A stretch of DNA of 64,000 nt, from positions 372,001 to 436,000 of the forward strand of contig SUVP01000001.1 of NCBI GenBank assembly GCA_015061945.1. Direction: 5' to 3'. Of this stretch, positions 10,832 through 34,675 are shown one piece after another. Each line of letters starts with the position of its first letter. Within the stretch, counting starts at the first letter, position 1. Source of the stretch: Opitutales bacterium (GTDB lineage: Bacteria > Verrucomicrobiota > Verrucomicrobiia > Opitutales > Intestinicryptomonadaceae). A program made the translations under genes and the position numbers. Under the pieces are notes generated by a model. That model was given only the letters and a program-made list of their open reading frames with translations, made no database searches and was not told where the DNA came from.

Positions 10832-10864
10832 ATAAAAAAGACGTTCGGCAAACTGCGAACGTCT
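10832..10864 (-). terminator. Rho-independent terminator of the EEP lipoprotein gene
   Basis: Perfect 9-bp arms AGACGTTCG / CGAACGTCT (10839-10847 and 10856-10864) are followed on the minus strand by TTTTTTATT. It separates the EEP gene from the gatC promoter region. Confidence 0.85.
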
Positions 10865-10889
10865 CACTATCACAAAAACTTATATTGCG

Positions 10890-11786
10890 TTAGAATCTTG
10901 TTTTTATGTAAACTGGATAGTGGTCTGATGTGTGAATATCGCCATATTTTTTCTTATCCAAGCAATACGATTGAACTTCGACATCGGAAGATACAAAAAT
11001 GAAGTCTATCCTATTTGCCTTTGGGTTATCTGACTTATATCCGTGATACGATGGACCATCACCGACTGGTTCGGATAGCGATGCCGTCTTTGAATCTTTC
11101 ATAAACCCACAACTCGAGATATGCTGGATACCTTTTGAAGTTGGCATAGAGTTTAAATCGCCCATTGCAAAGCTCGGTGTCCCTTTGGCAATTTCGGCAA
11201 TCTTCTTTACGAGAATTTTTGCCGATTCAAATTTTGCAACTTTGCCGATGTGTGTAAAGTGCGTGTTGAAAATATAAAATTCTTTGCCCGACTTCTTCTC
11301 GCGAAGCTTTACCCATGTGCAACAACGACTGCGTGGCGAATCCCAATCGTTCGATTCTACTTCAGGCGTTTTCGAGTAATAAAATTCACCTTTATCCAAA
11401 AGTTCAAAACGACTCTTTTTGAAATAAATCGGGTTGCATGGCGACGGATTCATTGTCGTACGCACTGGCTTATAGTAAAGGTCGTAATCAACAAGTTTTT
11501 CTTTCAAGCTGTCAACTTGCATTGGGATTGGCTCTTGGCACGCTACAATATCAAAATTGTGTTGTTTGACAAAGCTTGTGAGAATCGGCAAACGCTTGTC
11601 CCATGATACATCGATTGGTGGTTTTACTCCACGTGGCTTATGCCCTTTAATCATAATATTAAAAGTGCAAATAGATACATCTATTTTTGCGTTGCTTGTC
11701 GATGATGCCGAACATTTCGACGCCTTATCAGAGGCACAAGCAGTTAACATCAATACTGCCGTGATTACTGTTAATAATTTTTTCAT
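10890..11786 (-). CDS. Endonuclease/exonuclease/phosphatase family lipoprotein (paralogue 1)
   Basis: An extracytoplasmic member of the EEP superfamily (DNase I/exonuclease III/inositol-phosphatase fold). The 298-aa protein starts with a lipoprotein signal peptide ending in LMLTAC. The EEP active-site motifs follow in order: TFNIM near 43, CQEP near 87, NTHFTH near 176, GDLNSMP near 210, RIDFIF near 258 and the terminal SDHYPV with the catalytic Asp/His. The substrate is unknown: this fold covers nucleases, phospholipases C and sugar-phosphate phosphatases. It lies 15 nt downstream of a clan-A glycoside hydrolase on the same strand, and a paralogue at 28040 is paired with another glycoside hydrolase, so a role in glycan breakdown is a reasonable inference. 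Confidence 0.85.
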   Translation of the reverse strand: MKKLLTVITAVLMLTACASDKASKCSASSTSNAKIDVSICTFNIMIKGHKPRGVKPPIDVSWDKRLPILTSFVKQHNFDIVACQEPIPMQVDSLKEKLVDYDLYYKPVRTTMNPSPCNPIYFKKSRFELLDKGEFYYSKTPEVESNDWDSPRSRCCTWVKLREKKSGKEFYIFNTHFTHIGKVAKFESAKILVKKIAEIAKGTPSFAMGDLNSMPTSKGIQHISSCGFMKDSKTASLSEPVGDGPSYHGYKSDNPKANRIDFIFVSSDVEVQSYCLDKKKYGDIHTSDHYPVYIKTRF

Positions 11787-11801
11787 ATTTTGAGAGTAGT
11801 T

Positions 11802-14144
11802 TTATTTTAGAATTTTAAGGAACGCATCCAACGTTTCTGCGTCTTTTGCAACAATGTAATATGGAATCGGACTGAAATCGAAAATCCACGAACCATCGGA
11901 TAACACTGGAACTTTGTTGCCGAAAACATCAAACACGTCAATCCCTTCGGGTATTTTTCCCATATTGATTGGCGTACGCATCAATGGGTCGGTAAGTTTT
12001 GTCACCAAACTTATTCTATGTCCGCTTACATTTTCCATATACGAACCAAGTGCAAAAAGCGTTGCAACCTTACGCGGACCTTCTCTGTCGGCGAACTCAT
12101 AAGCCATTATCTTATCTTTAAAGTAATGTTTTTTTGCAAAACTTGTGTTCTTCAGAATATCGGCAAATACGGCTGATACTATGAAAATTTTGCTCGGAAC
12201 GTTTCTTGTAGTTTCACCGAAAGACGCATATGGCATATAATTGCCTTCAGCAAAATTCGATGTTTTCACCCCACTTTTGTCGTTTTTTCTAATTGTTGTG
12301 AACGACGCTGGCACGAGCAAGTCGGCACTGATACCATTTGCGACGTCGACAAGATAGCGTCTAATCAAATATCCAGCGTGGAAACGTGGACCGTTTTCGT
12401 GGTCGGCACCACCAAGCCTCGACATCGGATTCATATAATAAAGTTCTGTATGCCACAAGGGCTGTTTTACCCCATTTTTTTCGAGCGATTTAAAGAAATC
12501 TTGAATCAAGACATCGCTCGGCTTTGGAGAATCTTCGTAGAGTGATGAATAAGAGTGGAACGATATAATATCGCTAAATTTACCGGCTCCTGCGCTCAAC
12601 AATTTTGCAAGGAATCCGTTTGGATTGCCACCATAATCGCCCGTTGTCGAGAAGCCGACAATCTTATTATTTGCGTCGATGCTCTTGATGATTTTATTTG
12701 CTGATTCAAGGTATGGATAATATGTCATTGGATCTCGCCAAATGATATTCGGCTCATTCATAATTTCATAATATTTAATCTTACCTTTGTAGCGAGTTGC
12801 AACGGCACTGACCATTCTATTCCAGTCTTCCATTGGTGGCTTTATAGCCTTGCGACCTTGCTTTTCAAAGCCTGCTATCGGACGTACAACTTCCGACTTT
12901 TTGTAAAGCCAATCTGCTTGACGATGCCCACGAATCCCCATTTCTGGCGGATAAATGAAGAACATACCTCCCAACACGGGCAATATTTCGATATTATTTT
13001 TTGTTGCTAATCGCACAGTTTCGTCGGTAATATCCCAAAAATATTTTCCCTCTTGTGGCTCGATACAACGCCAATTAAATGGGTTTCCACTATCCCAAGT
13101 TCTGATAAAAGATATGCCTGTGTCGGCGAGAAAATCCATTTCTTCTGGAGTCGGTTTCCCGATTTCACCATTTGTCAAAACTCCGCAATAGCCGATGTCC
13201 AGAGGCAACTCTCCTCGCTTTGCACGGACTCGTGGAGTAGCCGCAAACATCATCGTATCAATTTCTTTTTCGTCTACAAATAACCTCAAATTGTATATGC
13301 CGTTTTTCTTAACAGGCGGAGTTCTAAATTTTATTTTGTTTCCTCCAACTGCGATTTCTTTTTTTACACTGTCTTCGTAAATTACTTTTTCAGTGAGATA
13401 CTCAACTATCTTCAATGTAATCTTCTTATTCTGTGAAGTATTCGACGAGTTATAAATATCAGCAATAGCAGTCAAGCGTTCTTTTTTTGATACAACACCC
13501 CAACTTGCATAACTACATTTTGCACGTTTCGATTTTTTCACTGCAAGGCGAACATCTGCAGATATTCCCGATGCGTTAGTTGAAGTAGGTTCTCCTTCAA
13601 TCTGATAAAGCATAAAATCGGCAAACGACAACTCCGCTTCGGGCGTTTCGGCAAATGGAAATTTTTTTGATTTTTTCTCGATTCGGAAAGGCACCCATTC
13701 TCGAGAACCATATTTTATCATATTTTCCATATTGACATAATATGTATAGGTCTTCCACTCGGTTGTAATATCAAAATTAGCGAGCATACGCCTATAGATA
13801 TTCTTGCTATACGACATTGCAAAGAGAGTAATGGCTATTGGCTTCGAGGCTTTCGCCTTAAATGTCATTTTATACTTCCCCTTTTTACCCAAATGCACTT
13901 CAGAAAAATTCAATCCGCCATACTCATTTTTTCTTGAATTGTACGTCAGATAATTTCCAACAACATCGTCTTTTTCAATTCTTGCATTGAGATTTTTCGG
14001 ATAGTCATCGCTAAAGCCAAAGCCTCTCCAACCATCTGAAAAATCACCATTAACAAACAGATTTCCACTCGCAAAGAGTGAAACTGCCGACATCCACATT
14101 ACTGCTAATACTTTCCACATAACATTTCTTTTACTAAAATACAT
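11802..14144 (-). CDS. Secreted clan-A glycoside hydrolase (GH39/GH5-like) with N-terminal carbohydrate-binding region
   Basis: The 780-aa exported protein has a hydrophobic signal (VMWKVLAVMWMSAVSLFASG). Residues ~30-190 resemble a jelly-roll carbohydrate-binding module (NGDFSDGW..., KYKMTFKAKASKP). A linker domain covers ~205-310. A TIM barrel follows (~320-650: GISFIRTWDSGNPFNWRCIEP, then the acid/base Glu in YYEIMNEPNI and the probable nucleophile in LWHTELYYMN), and a small beta C-terminal domain ends it. This is the GH39/GH5/GH10 clan-A plan; the exact family and substrate are not assignable by eye. The start is well supported: AGGAGG at 14150-14155 sits 5 nt before the ATG. It is followed within 15 nt by the EEP lipoprotein. 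Confidence 0.82.
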   Translation of the reverse strand: MYFSKRNVMWKVLAVMWMSAVSLFASGNLFVNGDFSDGWRGFGFSDDYPKNLNARIEKDDVVGNYLTYNSRKNEYGGLNFSEVHLGKKGKYKMTFKAKASKPIAITLFAMSYSKNIYRRMLANFDITTEWKTYTYYVNMENMIKYGSREWVPFRIEKKSKKFPFAETPEAELSFADFMLYQIEGEPTSTNASGISADVRLAVKKSKRAKCSYASWGVVSKKERLTAIADIYNSSNTSQNKKITLKIVEYLTEKVIYEDSVKKEIAVGGNKIKFRTPPVKKNGIYNLRLFVDEKEIDTMMFAATPRVRAKRGELPLDIGYCGVLTNGEIGKPTPEEMDFLADTGISFIRTWDSGNPFNWRCIEPQEGKYFWDITDETVRLATKNNIEILPVLGGMFFIYPPEMGIRGHRQADWLYKKSEVVRPIAGFEKQGRKAIKPPMEDWNRMVSAVATRYKGKIKYYEIMNEPNIIWRDPMTYYPYLESANKIIKSIDANNKIVGFSTTGDYGGNPNGFLAKLLSAGAGKFSDIISFHSYSSLYEDSPKPSDVLIQDFFKSLEKNGVKQPLWHTELYYMNPMSRLGGADHENGPRFHAGYLIRRYLVDVANGISADLLVPASFTTIRKNDKSGVKTSNFAEGNYMPYASFGETTRNVPSKIFIVSAVFADILKNTSFAKKHYFKDKIMAYEFADREGPRKVATLFALGSYMENVSGHRISLVTKLTDPLMRTPINMGKIPEGIDVFDVFGNKVPVLSDGSWIFDFSPIPYYIVAKDAETLDAFLKILK

Positions 14145-14234
14145 ATTATCCTCCTGCTTTCAAAAACCTAACAAAATTTAAACTACATCGCAAGATTATT
14201 TGACTTTTAAGGCGATGAATATTATCAAGACTCT

Positions 14235-14615
14235 ATGATTTTTTTAAGGACAATTTTATTAGCCTCATTATTTTTCTTTACAGGATGCGTAAAAGAAGTT
14301 CCCCCCAACCAACTCACTTTAGATGAAAACAAAACATCGGGTATCGTTTCGCGAAATGGGATTATCACTATCAATTTGAAAGGCAACGCAACTACTGGAT
14401 ACGTTTGGAGTGTATTCAACGACGGCACGCCTTATTTGAAATTCAGAAAAGAACAGTATGACGGCACAAACCCTGAATTGATTGGCTCTGGAGGAATTTC
14501 AACCTTTAAATTTGAAGCTCTAAAGAAAGGGACTGCTACTATTGAATTTAAGTACGGCAGAACATGGGAGCTATCGAGCATTAAAAGTGCGACTTTTAAA
14601 ATCACTGTGAAATAA
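14235..14615 (+). CDS. Chagasin-like (I42 family) protease-inhibitor lipoprotein
   Basis: The 126-aa predicted lipoprotein has signal peptide LLASLFFFTGC with the lipid-modified Cys at about residue 18. The mature domain has the three loops of I42 chagasin/amoebiapepsin inhibitors in order: GNATTGYVW (loop of the NPTTGYxW type), GSGGISTF, and GRTWE (RPWE-type loop). Family members bind the active-site cleft of papain-like cysteine peptidases; the target here is unknown. It is divergent from the clan-A glycoside hydrolase (90 nt apart) and ends just before a bidirectional terminator. No convincing Shine-Dalgarno sequence precedes the ATG. Confidence 0.8.
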   Translation: MIFLRTILLASLFFFTGCVKEVPPNQLTLDENKTSGIVSRNGIITINLKGNATTGYVWSVFNDGTPYLKFRKEQYDGTNPELIGSGGISTFKFEALKKGTATIEFKYGRTWELSSIKSATFKITVK

Positions 14616-28039: not shown

Positions 28040-28927
28040 ATGAAACGTATATTCTCTTTTATTCTTTGTTTTGCTATGTTGACTTTTGCGTTTTCGGCAG
28101 AAAAGAAAAGTCCTGAAAGCACCCAAACATCTATAATTGTATCGAGCTATAATATGCTCTACACTTTTGAAAAAGGGCATCGTTCCTACACAGTAGAGAG
28201 AGAACAAAAGTGGCACAAACGCAAAGATACCATTCTTCAAATGGTGAAATCGCAAAACATCGATATTTGCGGAACACAAGAATTGCGAAAGCTCCAAATA
28301 GATTATCTTTTCCCTGATGACACATACAACTACGTTATCGCTCCAAAGGAATTCGATCCCCAACAACGCTTGATGAATAATCTGATTCTTTACAAAAAAG
28401 ATAAATTTGAAGTTCTCGAAAACGGATTTTTTTGGCTCATCTCTTACAGAAAATGGAGACATTGCATTTGGGCAAAATTTAAAGACAAGCAAACAGATTG
28501 TACTTTTTATGTATTCAATGTTCACTTCCCTGTAACAAGAGAAGCTGGTGAAGAAGGTAAAATGGTGGCATCAAAAACGCTTGTCGAAAACATCAAAAAA
28601 ATTGCAAACAACCAACGCATAATTCTAACTGGCGATTTTAATTCGTTAGAAATAACACCACAAATCAAACACATAAAACAATCAGGTCTTGTAGATTCAA
28701 AGGAAGTTTCAAAGACTCAACCACAAGGTCCAAACTTTAGCTACAACAAATACTCAACAAGATATAGACCACCCGCACACCCCGAAACAAAGAACTTGCA
28801 TATCGACTTTATCTTTTGCTCGAAAGATATCGAAGTTGAATCGATAAAGGTTGTCCCCGATTGCATAAATGGAGTTTTACCAAGCGACCACTTCCCTGTT
28901 GTTGCAAAAATAAAAATCAAAAAATAA
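28040..28927 (+). CDS. Secreted endonuclease/exonuclease/phosphatase family protein (paralogue 2)
   Basis: The 295-aa exported EEP-fold protein has signal peptide FSFILCFAMLTFAFSA. Active-site motifs in order are SSYNMLY near 36, GTQELRKLQ near 76, FNVHFP near 157, LTGDFNSLE near 197, HIDFIF near 251, and SDHFPV near the C-terminus. It shares layout with the lipoprotein at 10890 (including YFYYSKTP-like aromatic and RC(C/I)W-type segments before the NTHF/NVHF motif) but uses a cleavable signal without a lipobox. The next gene, a large glycoside hydrolase, begins on the base after its stop codon, so the two are co-transcribed. The substrate is unknown. Confidence 0.85.
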   Translation: MKRIFSFILCFAMLTFAFSAEKKSPESTQTSIIVSSYNMLYTFEKGHRSYTVEREQKWHKRKDTILQMVKSQNIDICGTQELRKLQIDYLFPDDTYNYVIAPKEFDPQQRLMNNLILYKKDKFEVLENGFFWLISYRKWRHCIWAKFKDKQTDCTFYVFNVHFPVTREAGEEGKMVASKTLVENIKKIANNQRIILTGDFNSLEITPQIKHIKQSGLVDSKEVSKTQPQGPNFSYNKYSTRYRPPAHPETKNLHIDFIFCSKDIEVESIKVVPDCINGVLPSDHFPVVAKIKIKK

Positions 28928-31900
28928 ATGTCGCACATAAAAATCGCACTTCTGATATTATCCACATTTTGCACAAGCATATTTGCGTTTGCAAAAAACG
29001 AAAATCAATCAGCTGTAATTGAGGTCGTAGCCGAAAGTTTATCTGATATAAAAGTCAATGGTGCATCCGCCCCAACACTGTGGTCAAAAAACGGAAAAAA
29101 TTTTGCCACAATAGAAATCCCCACGTCAGAAAATTGGCAACACATTTCTATTGTCGGCAAAACAAAACCGAACTCGTACGTCTATTTCACACTTCAACCT
29201 GAAAAAAGAAAAACGCAATATGCGTCATTTTTTGACGACGTAAAATTCAACGGCAAACATCATACCGATAAAGGTTTTGAATTAGGGAAAACTCCCGATT
29301 GGGTCGTATATGGTGCTCCCGAAAATCACGTTCCGCAAATAGTGCCGTACGGAGCATATCAAGGCAATCAATGTATGCGTGTTGTCTGGACAAACCCTGT
29401 GCAAACACGGTTTTACTCTCAGCCCGACGGCAAATTCACAATATCCTTGTCCTGCAAAAACGCTGGCAAATATAAAAACGCTAACTACGACTTCCCTCTC
29501 GCTCTCGCACAAAATAAAAATTTAAAAAGCAATCTTCAATTTGGAAAAATTTTAAATAACCCAACTCAAATAAAATTAGATACAACCTCGGCAATACTCC
29601 TCAGAAAAAATAATCGTGTAAAAATCGATATTGGTGAAAATGTCGTTGGCAACAATCTTTACATTCTATCGGCAACTTACACTGAACAATCCAAACTGGC
29701 TGGAGTAGTTTGTGCTGAATTCAAAGATGGACAGAAAAAATATTTCGAGATTATATCAGCACATCGCACTGGAAATATAAATTCTCGTACAGCCACACGT
29801 TTCACAATTCCATTAAAAGCCGAAAACAAAAAGTTTCTCTATCTAACAAAGCTCGAATTATCGGAACTTGGTAATAAGCCCGACACAATCGAACTAATCG
29901 CAAAAAATTCCGATTGGCACATCGCTTCAATTATAATATCGGCACGCAATTACGACACAATCGCAACATTCACACCAACATCGCCCGACTGGATTAAAGC
30001 CGATTTTGGCGACAATCCACACGAAATTTCGCAAGGCTCTGCCCTCGATTTTTCTGCAAATGTTGAATCTAACGCTGGCTCAAAAGGTAGAATTATCATC
30101 AACAAAAACGGAAAGTTTGCATTTGAAAACGAGCCCGAAAAATCGATACGTTTCCACGCAACAATGACAACTTTCCCTCACCTTGTTAACAACAAATACT
30201 ACGATACAGAACAAGCGAAAAAATCAATCGACAAACAATTAAAAAATTTCAAGCAATGCGGATATAATCTACTTCGAGTTTGGGGACTCGAAGTTGCATA
30301 CAACAACAATGTAAAAAATGCCGAAATTAAAAGACAACTTTGGGATTACTTTATGGAAGAATCTCGCAAGACTGGAATTTATATCGACATTATGTTGCCT
30401 TTGCCTACCCCAAAAACCCCGACAGATTGGTACACTACTAAAACAAATTTCCTGCTCGGCGATAAATATCTCAACGACGATTGGGCAAATAAAGTTGTTC
30501 AAATTCTCAATCGCAAAAGCACAATTTCGGGAACACTCTTTAAAGATTTCCCACATATTCTCGCAATTGAATATATCAATGAGATTGGGATTGGTCCAAG
30601 AAAGTTGCAAGCAAGAGGCGACCCAACTTATGCACTCAATATCTGGCGAAACTGGCTCGAAGACAAATTCCAGAGTATCGAAAAAATCAACGCAATGTGG
30701 AAAACATCGTTCAAAAAATTTGGCGACATCACTGCAAAAGATATGCTATCTCGTCCACAATGGAACGAGTTTATAACAGAATACGCCATCCGTTCACATA
30801 ATCGTTGTGAAAGCGTTGTGCGTGCTACGGGCTACAAAGGACTAATCAATCAATACAACTACGATATCTCGCATACGTTTTCTGCAATACGTTTTGACGG
30901 CACAGATTACGTCGCAATGAATTCATATCACTCGCACCCGTACTACGAGTTCCCGACATCAACGTGGAACAACTGGAGTAAAAATCAACACGCAACAGTT
31001 TCACAAGAAAGCTCAACGCAAGCACTCGCAAGACACTTCCGAAGAATCGCCCAGCACAAACTTGCCGACCGCCCTATGATTCTCACAGAACACAAAAATT
31101 GTTTCTGGAACAAATATCAGTACGAAGACGCTCTCGTTTTCCCTGCGTACGCATCGTTTCAAGATTTCTCGGCGATATGTTCTTTCATAAGATCGAACGA
31201 TTCTGTTGAAACTCCTATGGGCAGTTTCACAACTGGCAACAATCCGATAGCAATAGTAAATGAAGTTCTTTCGTACTGTTTGTTTGCTCGCCAAGATGTC
31301 TCGCCCTCAAAACATCGAGTAGAAATCCCTATATCAAAGCAAATTCTAAATCAGACACGAATTGGCGATTTAACACTCGGTTGGCAACAAAGCATAATCC
31401 CAATTATAACTGGCTTTGCGATAACTTTCCCAGAGATGAAAACTCGTAAAAGTTTAAATCATGTTCAGATAAAACCTGCCGATATGATTATCGCCAAAGA
31501 CGGCTACGCTACAAGCGTATCGCACGATTTCTTTGCCGAAATAATCGAACAACCAAACGGAAAATTCGACCTCAAAAAATTCATCTCTAATTTGAAAGAT
31601 AAAAATATTCTGTCATCAGATAATATCAGCGATTTTGAAAATCGATGCTACCAAACCGACAACAAGCAAATATCAATTTTTAAGAACTCGAAAAAAATTA
31701 TTGTCAACACGCCACGCACTGAAGGTGTCGCACTTCTCGCTAAAAACTCGCAAAAAATCGACGCACTCGAAGTGCAATCATCGAGCGAAAACGCTATGAT
31801 TGCGTTGACATCAATGGACGGCAATCCGATAAAAAATAGCACAAAACTTCTACTTGTGTTCTCAACTGCTACGTTAAATTCTAATATGAAACTTTCCGAA

Positions 31901-32143
31901 GATTTAGCCTTTGCAAAGGAGATTGGCACAACACCAGCACTAATAAAAACTGCAAAACTACACGCAAAAATTAAGCTTGGCTCAAACAAAAAATATAAGC
32001 TTTACGCACTCGCAATCAATGGAGAACTCCGCCAAGAAATACCGCTTAAACAAAGTGAAAATCTTTTGGAAATATCTCTCGATACATCAAAATTAAAACA
32101 CGGAGCAACTCCATTTTTCTTAATTACAGAAAGCAAACAATAA
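28928..32143 (+). CDS. Large secreted clan-A glycoside hydrolase
   Basis: The 1071-aa exported protein has signal HIKIALLILSTFCTSIFAFA. Residues ~30-400 are beta-rich and probably carbohydrate-binding. From ~400 a TIM barrel begins: IRFHATMTTFPHLVNN, CGYNLLRVWGLEVAYN, acid/base Glu in LAIEYINEIGIG (about 542), a long helical insertion, AMNSYHSHPYYEFP, and probable nucleophile Glu in MILTEHKNCFW (about 721). The remaining ~250 residues form beta domains. The plan resembles GH5/GH42-like beta-glycosidases acting on large polymers; the family is not assignable by eye. It starts immediately after the stop of the EEP gene. Confidence 0.78.
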   Translation: MSHIKIALLILSTFCTSIFAFAKNENQSAVIEVVAESLSDIKVNGASAPTLWSKNGKNFATIEIPTSENWQHISIVGKTKPNSYVYFTLQPEKRKTQYASFFDDVKFNGKHHTDKGFELGKTPDWVVYGAPENHVPQIVPYGAYQGNQCMRVVWTNPVQTRFYSQPDGKFTISLSCKNAGKYKNANYDFPLALAQNKNLKSNLQFGKILNNPTQIKLDTTSAILLRKNNRVKIDIGENVVGNNLYILSATYTEQSKLAGVVCAEFKDGQKKYFEIISAHRTGNINSRTATRFTIPLKAENKKFLYLTKLELSELGNKPDTIELIAKNSDWHIASIIISARNYDTIATFTPTSPDWIKADFGDNPHEISQGSALDFSANVESNAGSKGRIIINKNGKFAFENEPEKSIRFHATMTTFPHLVNNKYYDTEQAKKSIDKQLKNFKQCGYNLLRVWGLEVAYNNNVKNAEIKRQLWDYFMEESRKTGIYIDIMLPLPTPKTPTDWYTTKTNFLLGDKYLNDDWANKVVQILNRKSTISGTLFKDFPHILAIEYINEIGIGPRKLQARGDPTYALNIWRNWLEDKFQSIEKINAMWKTSFKKFGDITAKDMLSRPQWNEFITEYAIRSHNRCESVVRATGYKGLINQYNYDISHTFSAIRFDGTDYVAMNSYHSHPYYEFPTSTWNNWSKNQHATVSQESSTQALARHFRRIAQHKLADRPMILTEHKNCFWNKYQYEDALVFPAYASFQDFSAICSFIRSNDSVETPMGSFTTGNNPIAIVNEVLSYCLFARQDVSPSKHRVEIPISKQILNQTRIGDLTLGWQQSIIPIITGFAITFPEMKTRKSLNHVQIKPADMIIAKDGYATSVSHDFFAEIIEQPNGKFDLKKFISNLKDKNILSSDNISDFENRCYQTDNKQISIFKNSKKIIVNTPRTEGVALLAKNSQKIDALEVQSSSENAMIALTSMDGNPIKNSTKLLLVFSTATLNSNMKLSEDLAFAKEIGTTPALIKTAKLHAKIKLGSNKKYKLYALAINGELRQEIPLKQSENLLEISLDTSKLKHGATPFFLITESKQ

Positions 32144-32208: not shown

Positions 32209-33639
32209 TTAGCGGAAACGAAGAACGAGATATCCGTATGGTCTCATTTTTACAGATATGCACTTTTCGCACTTTTTGTAATTGCAACCATAATTTAGCA
32301 TTGTTGTAGATACGTCTACATTTGGCAATTTTACGCAAGCATCAACTGGTGCATTGCGAGTATTTATCACAACCAATACTTTTTCGTTTTTCGCTGTGCG
32401 AGTGAACGACAATACGCTGTTTGGAGCAGAATTATCAATCCATTTTGTTTCACCATTCCAAAGAGCTGTGTTATCTTTACGCAATTTTGCGAGTTTGCGA
32501 ATGAGATTCATTCTTGCCCAACCTTCTCTTGTTGCGATATTTTCCCATGCGACAAACATTCTGCCATGCATGTTATCGCCGAACATTGAGAATGGAGCGT
32601 CGTCGGCAAATTCATTTCCGTTATAGATAAAAGGAATGCCGTCGATTGTGAAATTCAACACTTGGATTGCATCCATACCACGATTGCCAAATTGAACTTC
32701 ATAACGAGCTCCACCTTTATTTGGTTGGCATGCGTCGCTTGCAGTGTCGTGATTATCTAAAGCACGGAGCAAACGTGAACCTTTTGCAAATTTTTTATCT
32801 TGAACTTCCCAAATGTTGCGAAGTGCCGATGCTGGCTTCTTTGCCGAAAAAACGTCAATAGTATGATACTCCCATTTGAACGAGTAGTTAGCGTCGTAAA
32901 CGTCTACTTGAGCGTTAGCACGTTCACTTTCAGCGACCATAATTACATCAGGCTTAATTTTTACGATTTCCGCATAAGCTTCACGCCAGAAGTCAGCTGG
33001 AACTTCGCCTTCAACGTCTGTACGGTAGCCGTCTGCATCAAAATCCTTGATATAATAAACCATATTCTTGATGAGATAATCGCGTAAGCCACGGCTCTTA
33101 AAATTGAGTTGAGGGAAATTCCAAAGACCTTTTTTTACATTACCTTTCTCATCGCGAATAATGAAGTCTGGGTTATCCTTGATAAACACTGCTGTTGGAC
33201 CACAGTGGAAGTACACAAGGTCGAGAATAACTTTCAAGCCATAGCTGTGTGCTTCTGCGATAAAATCTTTGAGGTCTTGACTTGTACCGAAACGTGAGTC
33301 GATATTGAAATAATCCTTCATTCTGTATGGATTGCGTGGATTACCCAACTGCGACGCTTTTTGGCGACGGCTCCAGCCATCTTGATTCATATCGTCATCA
33401 GAAACAAAAACTGGGCACAAGTAAACGATATCTACACCGAGAGATTTGATGTGTGGGAGGAACTCTTGTGCTTTTTTCAATGTTCCTTCTTGAGTGAAGT
33501 GTTGTGGCAAAATCTGATAAATTACAGATTTTTTGAACGCTTCAGATGTTGGACGTGCCGACGGTTTTGCGTTATCTGCGAACGATAATGTCGCAAAAAG
33601 CGAAAGCAAACCTATGAGTATTTTTTTGAATGTAGTCAT
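32209..33639 (-). CDS. Secreted GH13 alpha-amylase family protein
   Basis: The 476-aa protein has signal peptide KKILIGLLSLFATLSFA. The GH13 barrel starts SVIYQILPQHFTQEG. Conserved region I is DLVYFHCG (Asn/His replaced by Phe-His-Cys), region II is DGYRTDVEGEV with the nucleophile Asp, region III is IMVAESERAN with the acid Glu, and region IV is LDNHDTAS with the third Asp. NFTIDGIPFIYNGNEFADD and a small C-terminal beta domain follow. All three catalytic acids are present, so it should be active on alpha-glucans in the periplasm or outside the cell. An AACCGGTT palindrome lies about 20 bp upstream of the start. GlgC in the window handles the opposite direction of glucan metabolism. Confidence 0.9.
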   Translation of the reverse strand: MTTFKKILIGLLSLFATLSFADNAKPSARPTSEAFKKSVIYQILPQHFTQEGTLKKAQEFLPHIKSLGVDIVYLCPVFVSDDDMNQDGWSRRQKASQLGNPRNPYRMKDYFNIDSRFGTSQDLKDFIAEAHSYGLKVILDLVYFHCGPTAVFIKDNPDFIIRDEKGNVKKGLWNFPQLNFKSRGLRDYLIKNMVYYIKDFDADGYRTDVEGEVPADFWREAYAEIVKIKPDVIMVAESERANAQVDVYDANYSFKWEYHTIDVFSAKKPASALRNIWEVQDKKFAKGSRLLRALDNHDTASDACQPNKGGARYEVQFGNRGMDAIQVLNFTIDGIPFIYNGNEFADDAPFSMFGDNMHGRMFVAWENIATREGWARMNLIRKLAKLRKDNTALWNGETKWIDNSAPNSVLSFTRTAKNEKVLVVINTRNAPVDACVKLPNVDVSTTMLNYGCNYKKCEKCISVKMRPYGYLVLRFR

Positions 33640-33659
33640 AATTTTGTATTTAAGAAGTT

Positions 33660-33667
33660 AACCGGTT
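33660..33667. promoter_or_regulatory. Candidate LacI-type operator upstream of the amylase
   Basis: The 8-bp palindrome AACCGGTT with central CG lies 21 bp upstream of the amylase ATG. LacI-family operators typically have a central CG, and a LacI-type regulator gene lies at 37237; the link is inference. Confidence 0.3.
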
Positions 33668-33745
33668 CTGAAAAGATTTTTTTTTAATATATTGGAAATT
33701 GCAACGATTTTTTTTTAGCAATTAGGTAAACTGTTTAATCGCATT

Positions 33746-34675
33746 TTAAAGAAATCTGAACGTCTCTTTAATCACTTCATATTTTGGGATGCCATTTTCA
33801 AAACTTTCTTTCAATTTTATGATTGCGGTACGACGTGGTGCGACTTCTTTATCAGAATAATGCGTGTGAAATACATACCAAATATCGCCTTTAGAATCGA
33901 AGAATACATCGCCATGTCCGGCACCTGCGTGTCCGACAATATCACGTCGGATAATCGGATTATTCTTAGCACGAGTCCACTCACCCGTCGGTGAATCCGA
34001 CACTGCATAACCGACGGCATAATCTTTATCTCTAAAATCGTTCGCCGAGTAAAACAAAACATATTTGCCATTTCTTTTGATAACAGTCGGACCCTCGACT
34101 GTTACTGGAATTTTATGATTCGCCGTATTTTCCCAGCCATTTTCGGCACAAATACACGGCTTAAGATTTGTCAACTTTGTAAAAGTTTCGTCAATCTCGG
34201 CGACATAAATCCAGTTGCGATGTTTTGTCGAAAACGAAAAATACACATATCGCTTGCCGTCATCATCGATAAAAACGAAAGGGTCAATCTGTTTAGATTT
34301 TGCTGAAATGCACGCTGGTTCGTCTTGAACAAAAGGTCCGAGCGGAGTATCTGCTTTTGCGAAAGCTAATCGATATTCACTATATGCAAAAATAAATTTA
34401 TCCTTATATTTCAGCAACTGCGGAGCAACACATCGCTTGCCTGTAAATGCTTTTTGAGAATCGAGTGCGTATTGAATTTGCCCAGCCTGATTTTTATTCG
34501 ACCAATTTTTAAAATCTTTCGATGTATAAATTGTGAAAGATTTGCAATGGTCAAAAGCATCTGTACCGACCAAATAATATGTGCCATCGTGATAAAAAAT
34601 GCTTGGGTCGGCGACAAAAATATCGGCGAACAAAACATTCGCAACGCACAAAATTAGCAAGCAAAATTTCTTCAT
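33746..34675 (-). CDS. Secreted GH43-family glycosidase
   Basis: The 309-aa protein has signal KKFCLLILCVANVLFA and a five-bladed beta-propeller of GH43. The catalytic base Asp is in FVADPSIFYHDGTYYLVGT (about residue 22), the pKa-modulating Asp in QIDPFVFIDDDGKRYVYF (about 130), and the acid Glu in VTVEGPTVIKRNGKYVL (about 192). GH43 enzymes are mostly arabinofuranosidases or xylosidases; the substrate is not decided here. AGGAGG at 34680-34685 stands 4 nt before the ATG, a strong ribosome-binding site. It is preceded by the kdsA terminator, so it has its own promoter. Confidence 0.88.
   Translation of the reverse strand: MKKFCLLILCVANVLFADIFVADPSIFYHDGTYYLVGTDAFDHCKSFTIYTSKDFKNWSNKNQAGQIQYALDSQKAFTGKRCVAPQLLKYKDKFIFAYSEYRLAFAKADTPLGPFVQDEPACISAKSKQIDPFVFIDDDGKRYVYFSFSTKHRNWIYVAEIDETFTKLTNLKPCICAENGWENTANHKIPVTVEGPTVIKRNGKYVLFYSANDFRDKDYAVGYAVSDSPTGEWTRAKNNPIIRRDIVGHAGAGHGDVFFDSKGDIWYVFHTHYSDKEVAPRRTAIIKLKESFENGIPKYEVIKETFRFL

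Follow-up and report, generated by a model that had tools for sequence, protein, structure and literature searches.

Does a secreted EEP phosphoesterase (endonuclease/exonuclease/phosphatase) whose gene lies directly beside that of a glycoside hydrolase take part in the breakdown of the same glycan? This question is raised by a gene pair in a 64,000-nucleotide stretch of DNA from an Opitutales bacterium (here termed the window; contig SUVP01000001.1). A first-pass annotation had described an EEP lipoprotein gene 15 nt after a GH39/GH5-like enzyme gene with a strong ribosome-binding site, and had suggested from a second such pairing in the window that the EEP protein removes phosphate or phosphodiester decorations from glycans. 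Below, GH1 and GH2 denote the hydrolases of locus 1 and locus 2 and EEP1 and EEP2 their respective neighbours. The features of locus 1 are:

10838..10865, minus strand: terminator-like hairpin (10 pairs) with T-rich tail, 3' of EEP1; consensus match.
10890..11786, minus strand: EEP1, ORF of 298 aa; predicted secreted, lipoprotein-like EEP phosphoesterase (PF03372, 4c1r match, fold model).
11787..11801, minus strand: 15-nt spacer from the GH1 stop to the EEP1 start, with no Shine-Dalgarno sequence.
11802..14144, minus strand: GH1, ORF of 780 aa; putative secreted clan-A-like glycoside hydrolase with an N-terminal CBM_4_9-like domain.
14136..14174, minus strand: promoter-like sites directly upstream of GH1; consensus match.

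The ORF coordinates agree with the 15-nt spacing that had been claimed. GH1 starts behind a strong Shine-Dalgarno sequence (AGGAGG; GCAGGAGGATAAT), which is found at 6 of the 34 window ORFs tested, but none was detected at the EEP1 start (AACTACTCTCAAAAT), and the strong ribosome-binding site of the first-pass annotation is thus a property of the hydrolase gene and not of its neighbour. Terminator-like sites number 4 in the stretch compared with 3.3 in shuffles, so the hairpin between EEP1 and the following gene is only suggestive, while promoter-like sites occur at approximately the same frequency as in shuffled sequence (12 observed, 11.2 in shuffles). With a 15-nt gap, a Shine-Dalgarno sequence at GH1 only and a hairpin after EEP1, the two genes look like a two-gene unit, and we infer that they are co-transcribed and that both products are exported.

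The second pairing is also present at 28040-32143, with the opposite gene order and a different hydrolase; GH1 and GH2 share no significant similarity by BLASTP. EEP2 is followed by GH2 with no gap, and convergent GH13-like and GH43 genes lie downstream:

28040..28927, plus strand: EEP2, ORF; predicted secreted EEP phosphoesterase with a signal peptide and, by eye, no lipobox (PF03372 3.5e-15, 3g6s 6.1e-21).
28928..32143, plus strand: GH2, ORF of 1071 aa; putative secreted clan-A-like glycoside hydrolase (GH42/GH5/GH167-like).

Both phosphoesterases pass the PF03372 cut-off of 24.5 bits, with 39.6 bits (6.2e-10) for EEP1 and 56.8 bits (3.5e-15) for EEP2, and they are 32% identical to each other. 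The description of EEP1 as a lipoprotein agrees with a lipobox-like LTAC motif with Cys17, identified by eye at the N-terminus, but the Pfam lipoprotein-site model scored 17.4 bits against a cut-off of 20. There are 11 EEP matches in the genome, comprising 10 proteins of the EEP1/EEP2 subgroup and one that is exonuclease-III-like. By eye, the subgroup members begin with a signal peptide or a membrane helix, and N43, E85, H176, D210, N212, D261, D288 and H289 (EEP1 numbering) are invariant in all 10 copies; these N, E, H, D-N, D and D-H positions are the metal and catalytic residues of EEP1. Among solved structures, EEP1 is most closely related to BT3783 (4c1r and 3mpr; E 1.4e-31 for 4c1r) and 3g6s, with EEP2 nearer to 3g6s (6.1e-21) than to 4c1r (2.3e-15).

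A structure model of EEP1, produced from an alignment of four sequences (EEP1, EEP2 and those of loci L118 and L119; mean pLDDT 78.3), gave its best fold matches to 3g6s, 3mpr, 4c1r and 3l1w (Z 33.4 to 29.7), with Z 33.4 for 3g6s and Z 31.9 for 4c1r (252 aligned, rmsd 2.7), and nucleases and sphingomyelinases matched less well (Z 27.6 and below). By sequence and fold EEP1 belongs with the BT3783-like EEP subgroup and is predicted to be a metal-dependent phosphoesterase, as a new member and not as an orthologue of BT3783. Orthology was rejected for both window proteins, which rank 52 and 99 among the 109 EEPs matched to BT3783 (113 compared), and the collected EEPs most similar to BT3783 are L187_9570 (50%) and L171_9459 (48%). 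Relatives of EEP2 are also found in 23 plasmid records, at a best identity of 30%.

PF03372 includes many nucleases, and EEP1 might instead be a secreted nuclease or nucleotidase, a reading that draws on weak ExoIII-type similarity at its C-terminus (20.1 bits) and on matches of its model to TDP2, nocturnin and CNOT6L (Z 26-27.6). We consider this improbable: the fold matches to 3g6s, BT3783 and 3l1w are better, those 20.1 bits compare with a cut-off of 99.05 for the xth model, and EEP2 reached 23.8 bits with the ExeM/NucH DNase model, where the cut-off is 300. There is likewise a slim chance that EEP1 cleaves lipid head groups, as a phosphodiesterase of the sphingomyelinase or glycerophosphodiester type. 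Human neutral sphingomyelinase (8j2f, Z 27.2) and its bacterial counterparts (Z ~22.5) share their fold with EEP1, and one EEP paralogue of the genome lies ~3 kb from a GDPD gene; the structural match is, however, lower than that to BT3783.

GH1 scored 24.9 bits with CBM_4_9 (PF02018) and 21.2 bits with Cellulase (PF00150, GH5; cut-off 23.5), both just under cut-off, and PF02449 (GH42; cut-off 21) gave 16.4 bits for GH1 and 17.2 bits (0.0035) for GH2. A match of GH1 to 5jvk, which we take to be a GH39, was obtained at E 3e-4, the GH39 model was absent from its matches at E<=0.01, and a five-sequence GH1 profile gave weak matches to GH10 xylanases and 5jvk. GH2 matched 9whd at 1.3e-5, and its profile matched GH5 mannanases and GH42. 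Candidate catalytic residues are E464 (NEP) and E567 (HTE) in GH1, invariant in 5 homologues, and E552 and E721 in GH2, invariant in 7. A single-sequence structure prediction of GH1 was useless (mean pLDDT 33.7). Judged by these matches both proteins look like clan-A-like glycosidases, and as they lie under every Pfam cut-off we assign them to no family.

Repetition of an unusual pairing had been the argument for a glycan role. With 10 subgroup EEPs in the genome, two EEP-hydrolase pairs are unsurprising: with a roughly estimated chance of 7-13% for each EEP to have a same-strand glycoside hydrolase neighbour, the probability of two or more pairs is 15-38%. Two of ten is about what a genome rich in glycoside hydrolases would give, which makes the repetition argument weak, and no excess over chance is borne out. 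The other EEP genes of this genome have mixed neighbours, including tyrosine-phosphatase-like, uronate isomerase, beta-helix and housekeeping genes and convergent genes for a phosphodiester glycosidase (NAGPA) and a GH10 enzyme.

Furthermore, the specific GH1-EEP1 and EEP2-GH2 pairs are not conserved in relatives. No EEP gene was found within ~5 kb on each side of the four other GH1-family (locus-1 homologue) genes of the genus, at three loci, nor near strong GH2-family genes in five fetched loci from three genomes. When the positions of 38 other GH2-family genes were set against those of every EEP in the order, among the matches listed (the best 4 or fewer candidates per genome for the GH2 family and the best 13 or fewer for EEPs), the shortest distances were 6.3 kb (G009) and ~11 kb (G010). 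Across a phylum sample of 387 genomes a subgroup EEP at E<=1e-40 is present in at least 98, but in none of the 8 further genomes in which the GH1 family occurs, among the matches listed. One EEP region (L192) contains a weak GH1-like gene (E 2.9e-11).

The neighbourhood survey that the first-pass annotation had proposed covered 97 EEP places of the order (90 + 7, among the matches listed), from which 86 regions were fetched, containing 100 EEP genes after one overlapping region was left out; the simple ORF caller may err, above all in GC-rich genomes. An excess of glycosidases beside EEP genes was not found in the window's taxonomic family: among secreted neighbours no shorter than 280 aa, 9 of 32 beside an EEP were glycoside hydrolase- or lyase-like, compared with at least 12 of 41 at a distance of 5-7 genes (p = 1.0), the latter being a lower bound because control genes were scanned singly only in part. 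Without the two window pairs the figure is 7 of 30 (p = 0.79), and the statistical argument of the annotation does not hold at this level. Pfam scans were run singly on 23 of the 32 test genes and in bulk on the other nine, returning the 25 commonest families, with one of the nine (L130) counted as hydrolase-like by homology to L129. Single scans covered 20 control genes, picked by eye as more enzyme-like, and two controls were hydrolase-like by homology alone (L166:3762, and L139:116, which has no Pfam match and is similar to GH2). Beta-helix, GLAA-B and DUF5696 neighbours were scored as hydrolase-like, a choice that favours a link.

Same-strand neighbours no more than 60 nt from an EEP number 25. 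The hydrolase-like ones are the two window hydrolases and a beta-helix gene, and two more are esterases (22 were scanned singly, six of these without a Pfam match, and one, at L166, is probably not a gene). Likewise, a hand-assigned hydrolase-neighbour label on 11 of 99 EEPs showed no clustering when placed on the tree of EEPs (10 changes against 10.6 in shuffles). EEP neighbours are secreted somewhat more often by a crude signal-peptide pattern (73/165 vs 255/818, p 0.0015). PEP-CTERM proteins directly beside EEPs were raised in number but not convincingly (6/165 vs 12/870, p 0.053).

These results give real weight to the possibility, which we put well short of probable, that GH1 and EEP1 are chance neighbours and that EEP1 is a general secreted phosphate-scavenging phosphoesterase, one of ten scattered paralogues with no tie to GH1. 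The pairings are not conserved, other EEPs are often beside housekeeping genes, hydrolases are not in excess, and the modest surplus of secreted neighbours is also compatible with it. In addition, a study of a Flavobacterium reports that many phosphatases and phosphodiesterases are induced by low phosphate (PMC8115612), although the transcript change given there for the EEP entry Fjoh_0074 is only 1.15. Against chance stand the close spacing of the two genes as a unit, with a hairpin following EEP1, and the occurrence elsewhere of open frames that contain both a glycoside hydrolase and an EEP.

Such frames were seen in the phylum sample, where, by hand count, at least 12 of 139 listed EEP places (the best 6 or fewer candidates per genome) fall in open frames no shorter than 600 aa, 11 of which were fetched and read. 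In G273 and G284 an EEP is followed by GH29 in the same open frame (2.5e-81 and 2.6e-79, with G284 by coordinates only), and in G554 GH76 (9.2e-35) is followed by an EEP. In G429 an EEP precedes a chain that matches GH1 of locus 1 (26% over 196 aa; BLASTP E 6e-8 in a single comparison); hhalign gave a weak match of this chain to GH1 (E 1.4e-4, probability 52%), and its GH1-like part had no match in the PDB. A glycoside hydrolase partner was thus identified by family model in 3 of the 12 long chains and by weak GH1 similarity in one. The partner in the remaining 8 was assigned by no family model; by eye five look similar to DUF4965/glutaminase-type chains, one looks GH20-/GH67-like, one LamG-rich and one discoidin-like. 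That the assignable partners are glycoside hydrolases also argues against a lipid head-group substrate.

Also in favour of a glycan role, an EEP of G104 has a GlpT/SLC37A4-related antiporter (9.2e-38 to 1pw4) on one side and NanE with a phosphohexomutase on the other. Within 100 genomes of the family of G104, EEP relatives occur in 32, the antiporter in 8 and NanE in 3, and by coordinates all three come together only in G104 and G183, which belong to one genus. The G104 EEP is the nearest to EEP1 by path on a quick tree, at a distance (1.75) that is far.

No paper on EEP-hydrolase fusions was found among the literature matches listed, in a search where the slashed name endonuclease/exonuclease/phosphatase is not searchable as written. 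According to one paper, the breakdown of yeast mannan requires sugar phosphatases, which it names together with GH76 and GH92 (PMC5798181), and the available part of another includes a phosphatase, without a locus name, among the coloured genes of a figure legend (PMC7562712).

The glycan reading gains from the EEP-hydrolase chains elsewhere in the phylum sample and from BT3783 as the closest named relative; the tight spacing at locus 1 and the GH13-like and GH43 genes next to locus 2 also speak for it. We tentatively favour, with a little less than even confidence, a glycan role shared by GH1 and EEP1 as a small co-transcribed foraging unit. GH1 would be exported and cut the glycan chain, and EEP1, exported probably as a lipoprotein, would remove phosphate from, or split a phosphodiester in, the material of GH1 or its fragments, after which glycosidases could finish the breakdown. 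We infer that the two enzymes have a substrate in common, and it is plausible, though not proven, that EEP1 takes phosphate off sugar chains. The proposal that the EEP protein acts in glycan breakdown by removing phosphate therefore keeps the BT3783 precedent and the EEP-GH29, GH76-EEP and EEP-GH1-like chains on its side, but has lost the neighbourhood excess in the window's taxonomic family and conservation of the pairs.

It is also conceivable, if rather unlikely, that the EEP subgroup as a whole serves glycosidases as a general partner that has been overlooked, a phosphate counterpart of the sulfatases. Its members would then stand alone, be encoded in gene pairs like GH1-EEP1 or be fused to GH29, GH76 and clan-A-like enzymes, and each would take phosphate or phosphodiester groups off a different glycan. 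Glycan phosphate is far less studied than sulfate, and if each EEP goes with a certain glycosidase, the likely substrate could be read from the partner to which it is fused or with which it is co-transcribed. Tests would then be easy, and this would help to annotate a common and mostly uncharacterised family of secreted enzymes.

Compared with known systems, GH1 resembles GH39 (5jvk), GH10 and GH5-type clan-A enzymes in a catalytic part that is likely a TIM barrel and carries two conserved Glu residues, although it lies below every Pfam cut-off. GH2 has short matches to GH42 and GH167 (9whd) around the presumed acid/base region, with GH42 under the Pfam cut-off. The closest folds to EEP1, together with BT3783, are 3g6s (BVU_0621, Bacteroides vulgatus) and 3l1w (Enterococcus faecalis), whose entries give no function. 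BT3783 itself reportedly has a role in yeast-mannan foraging, whereas none of the alpha-mannan enzyme families GH76, GH92 and GH125 was found among the nine proteins scanned at the two loci. In the HIGKxAR loop EEP1 has K for R, and EEP2 is without the loop motif. EEP1 nonetheless shares its EEP subgroup, fold and catalytic residues with BT3783 (4c1r/3mpr), a mannosyl-6-phosphatase of Bacteroides thetaiotaomicron to which it is 31% identical over 216 aa.

EEP domains were found joined to glycosidase domains in single open frames, as follows (L coordinates here and below are local to each fetched locus); the GH29 and GH76 partners were verified by family model.

L260:3133-5361, genome G273: EEP and GH29
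L258:1476-3986, genome G554: EEP and GH76
L253:209-4543, genome G429: EEP and a chain called GH1-like on weak similarity to GH1, the predicted clan-A-like glycosidase of locus 1 in the window

The domain also lies C-terminally in five long chains (L251:3355-6702, L254:1084-4362, L255:3479-6838, L256:1173-3962 and L257:762-4121), which by eye have in common an N-terminal part of 650-860 aa, to which no model assigns a family.

EEP copy number was highly variable, with 10, 8 and 12 matches in G000, G007 and G104, respectively, and at least 13 in the 1.6 Mb genome G015 (14 in another search); 136 of 177 genomes had no EEP match at E ≤ 1e-25.

Flanking the two window loci and beside an EEP gene elsewhere in the same genome were the following.

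Window 14235-14615: a gene divergent from GH1 that encodes a chagasin-type peptidase inhibitor (PF09394, 3.3e-22)
Window 32209-34675: convergent neighbours of locus 2 (the second EEP-glycosidase pair), namely GH13-like and GH43 genes
L120:8449-9498: phosphodiester glycosidase (NAGPA, 3.3e-20), convergent with an EEP gene, 19 nt between

PEP-CTERM surface proteins immediately adjoin EEP genes at L126, L134, L135, L151, L159 and L162 and, by eye, at L154.

Two arrangements were seen in G104.

L185:7965-12566: consecutive genes for a GlpT/SLC37A4-like antiporter, an EEP protein, NanE and a phosphohexomutase
L191:6298-16051: tandem array of five EEP genes

The antiporter, EEP and NanE genes are likewise adjacent in G183. 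The five-gene array is flanked on one side by a calcineurin-like phosphoesterase, with two sulfatases beyond it, and on the other by a GH78 gene.
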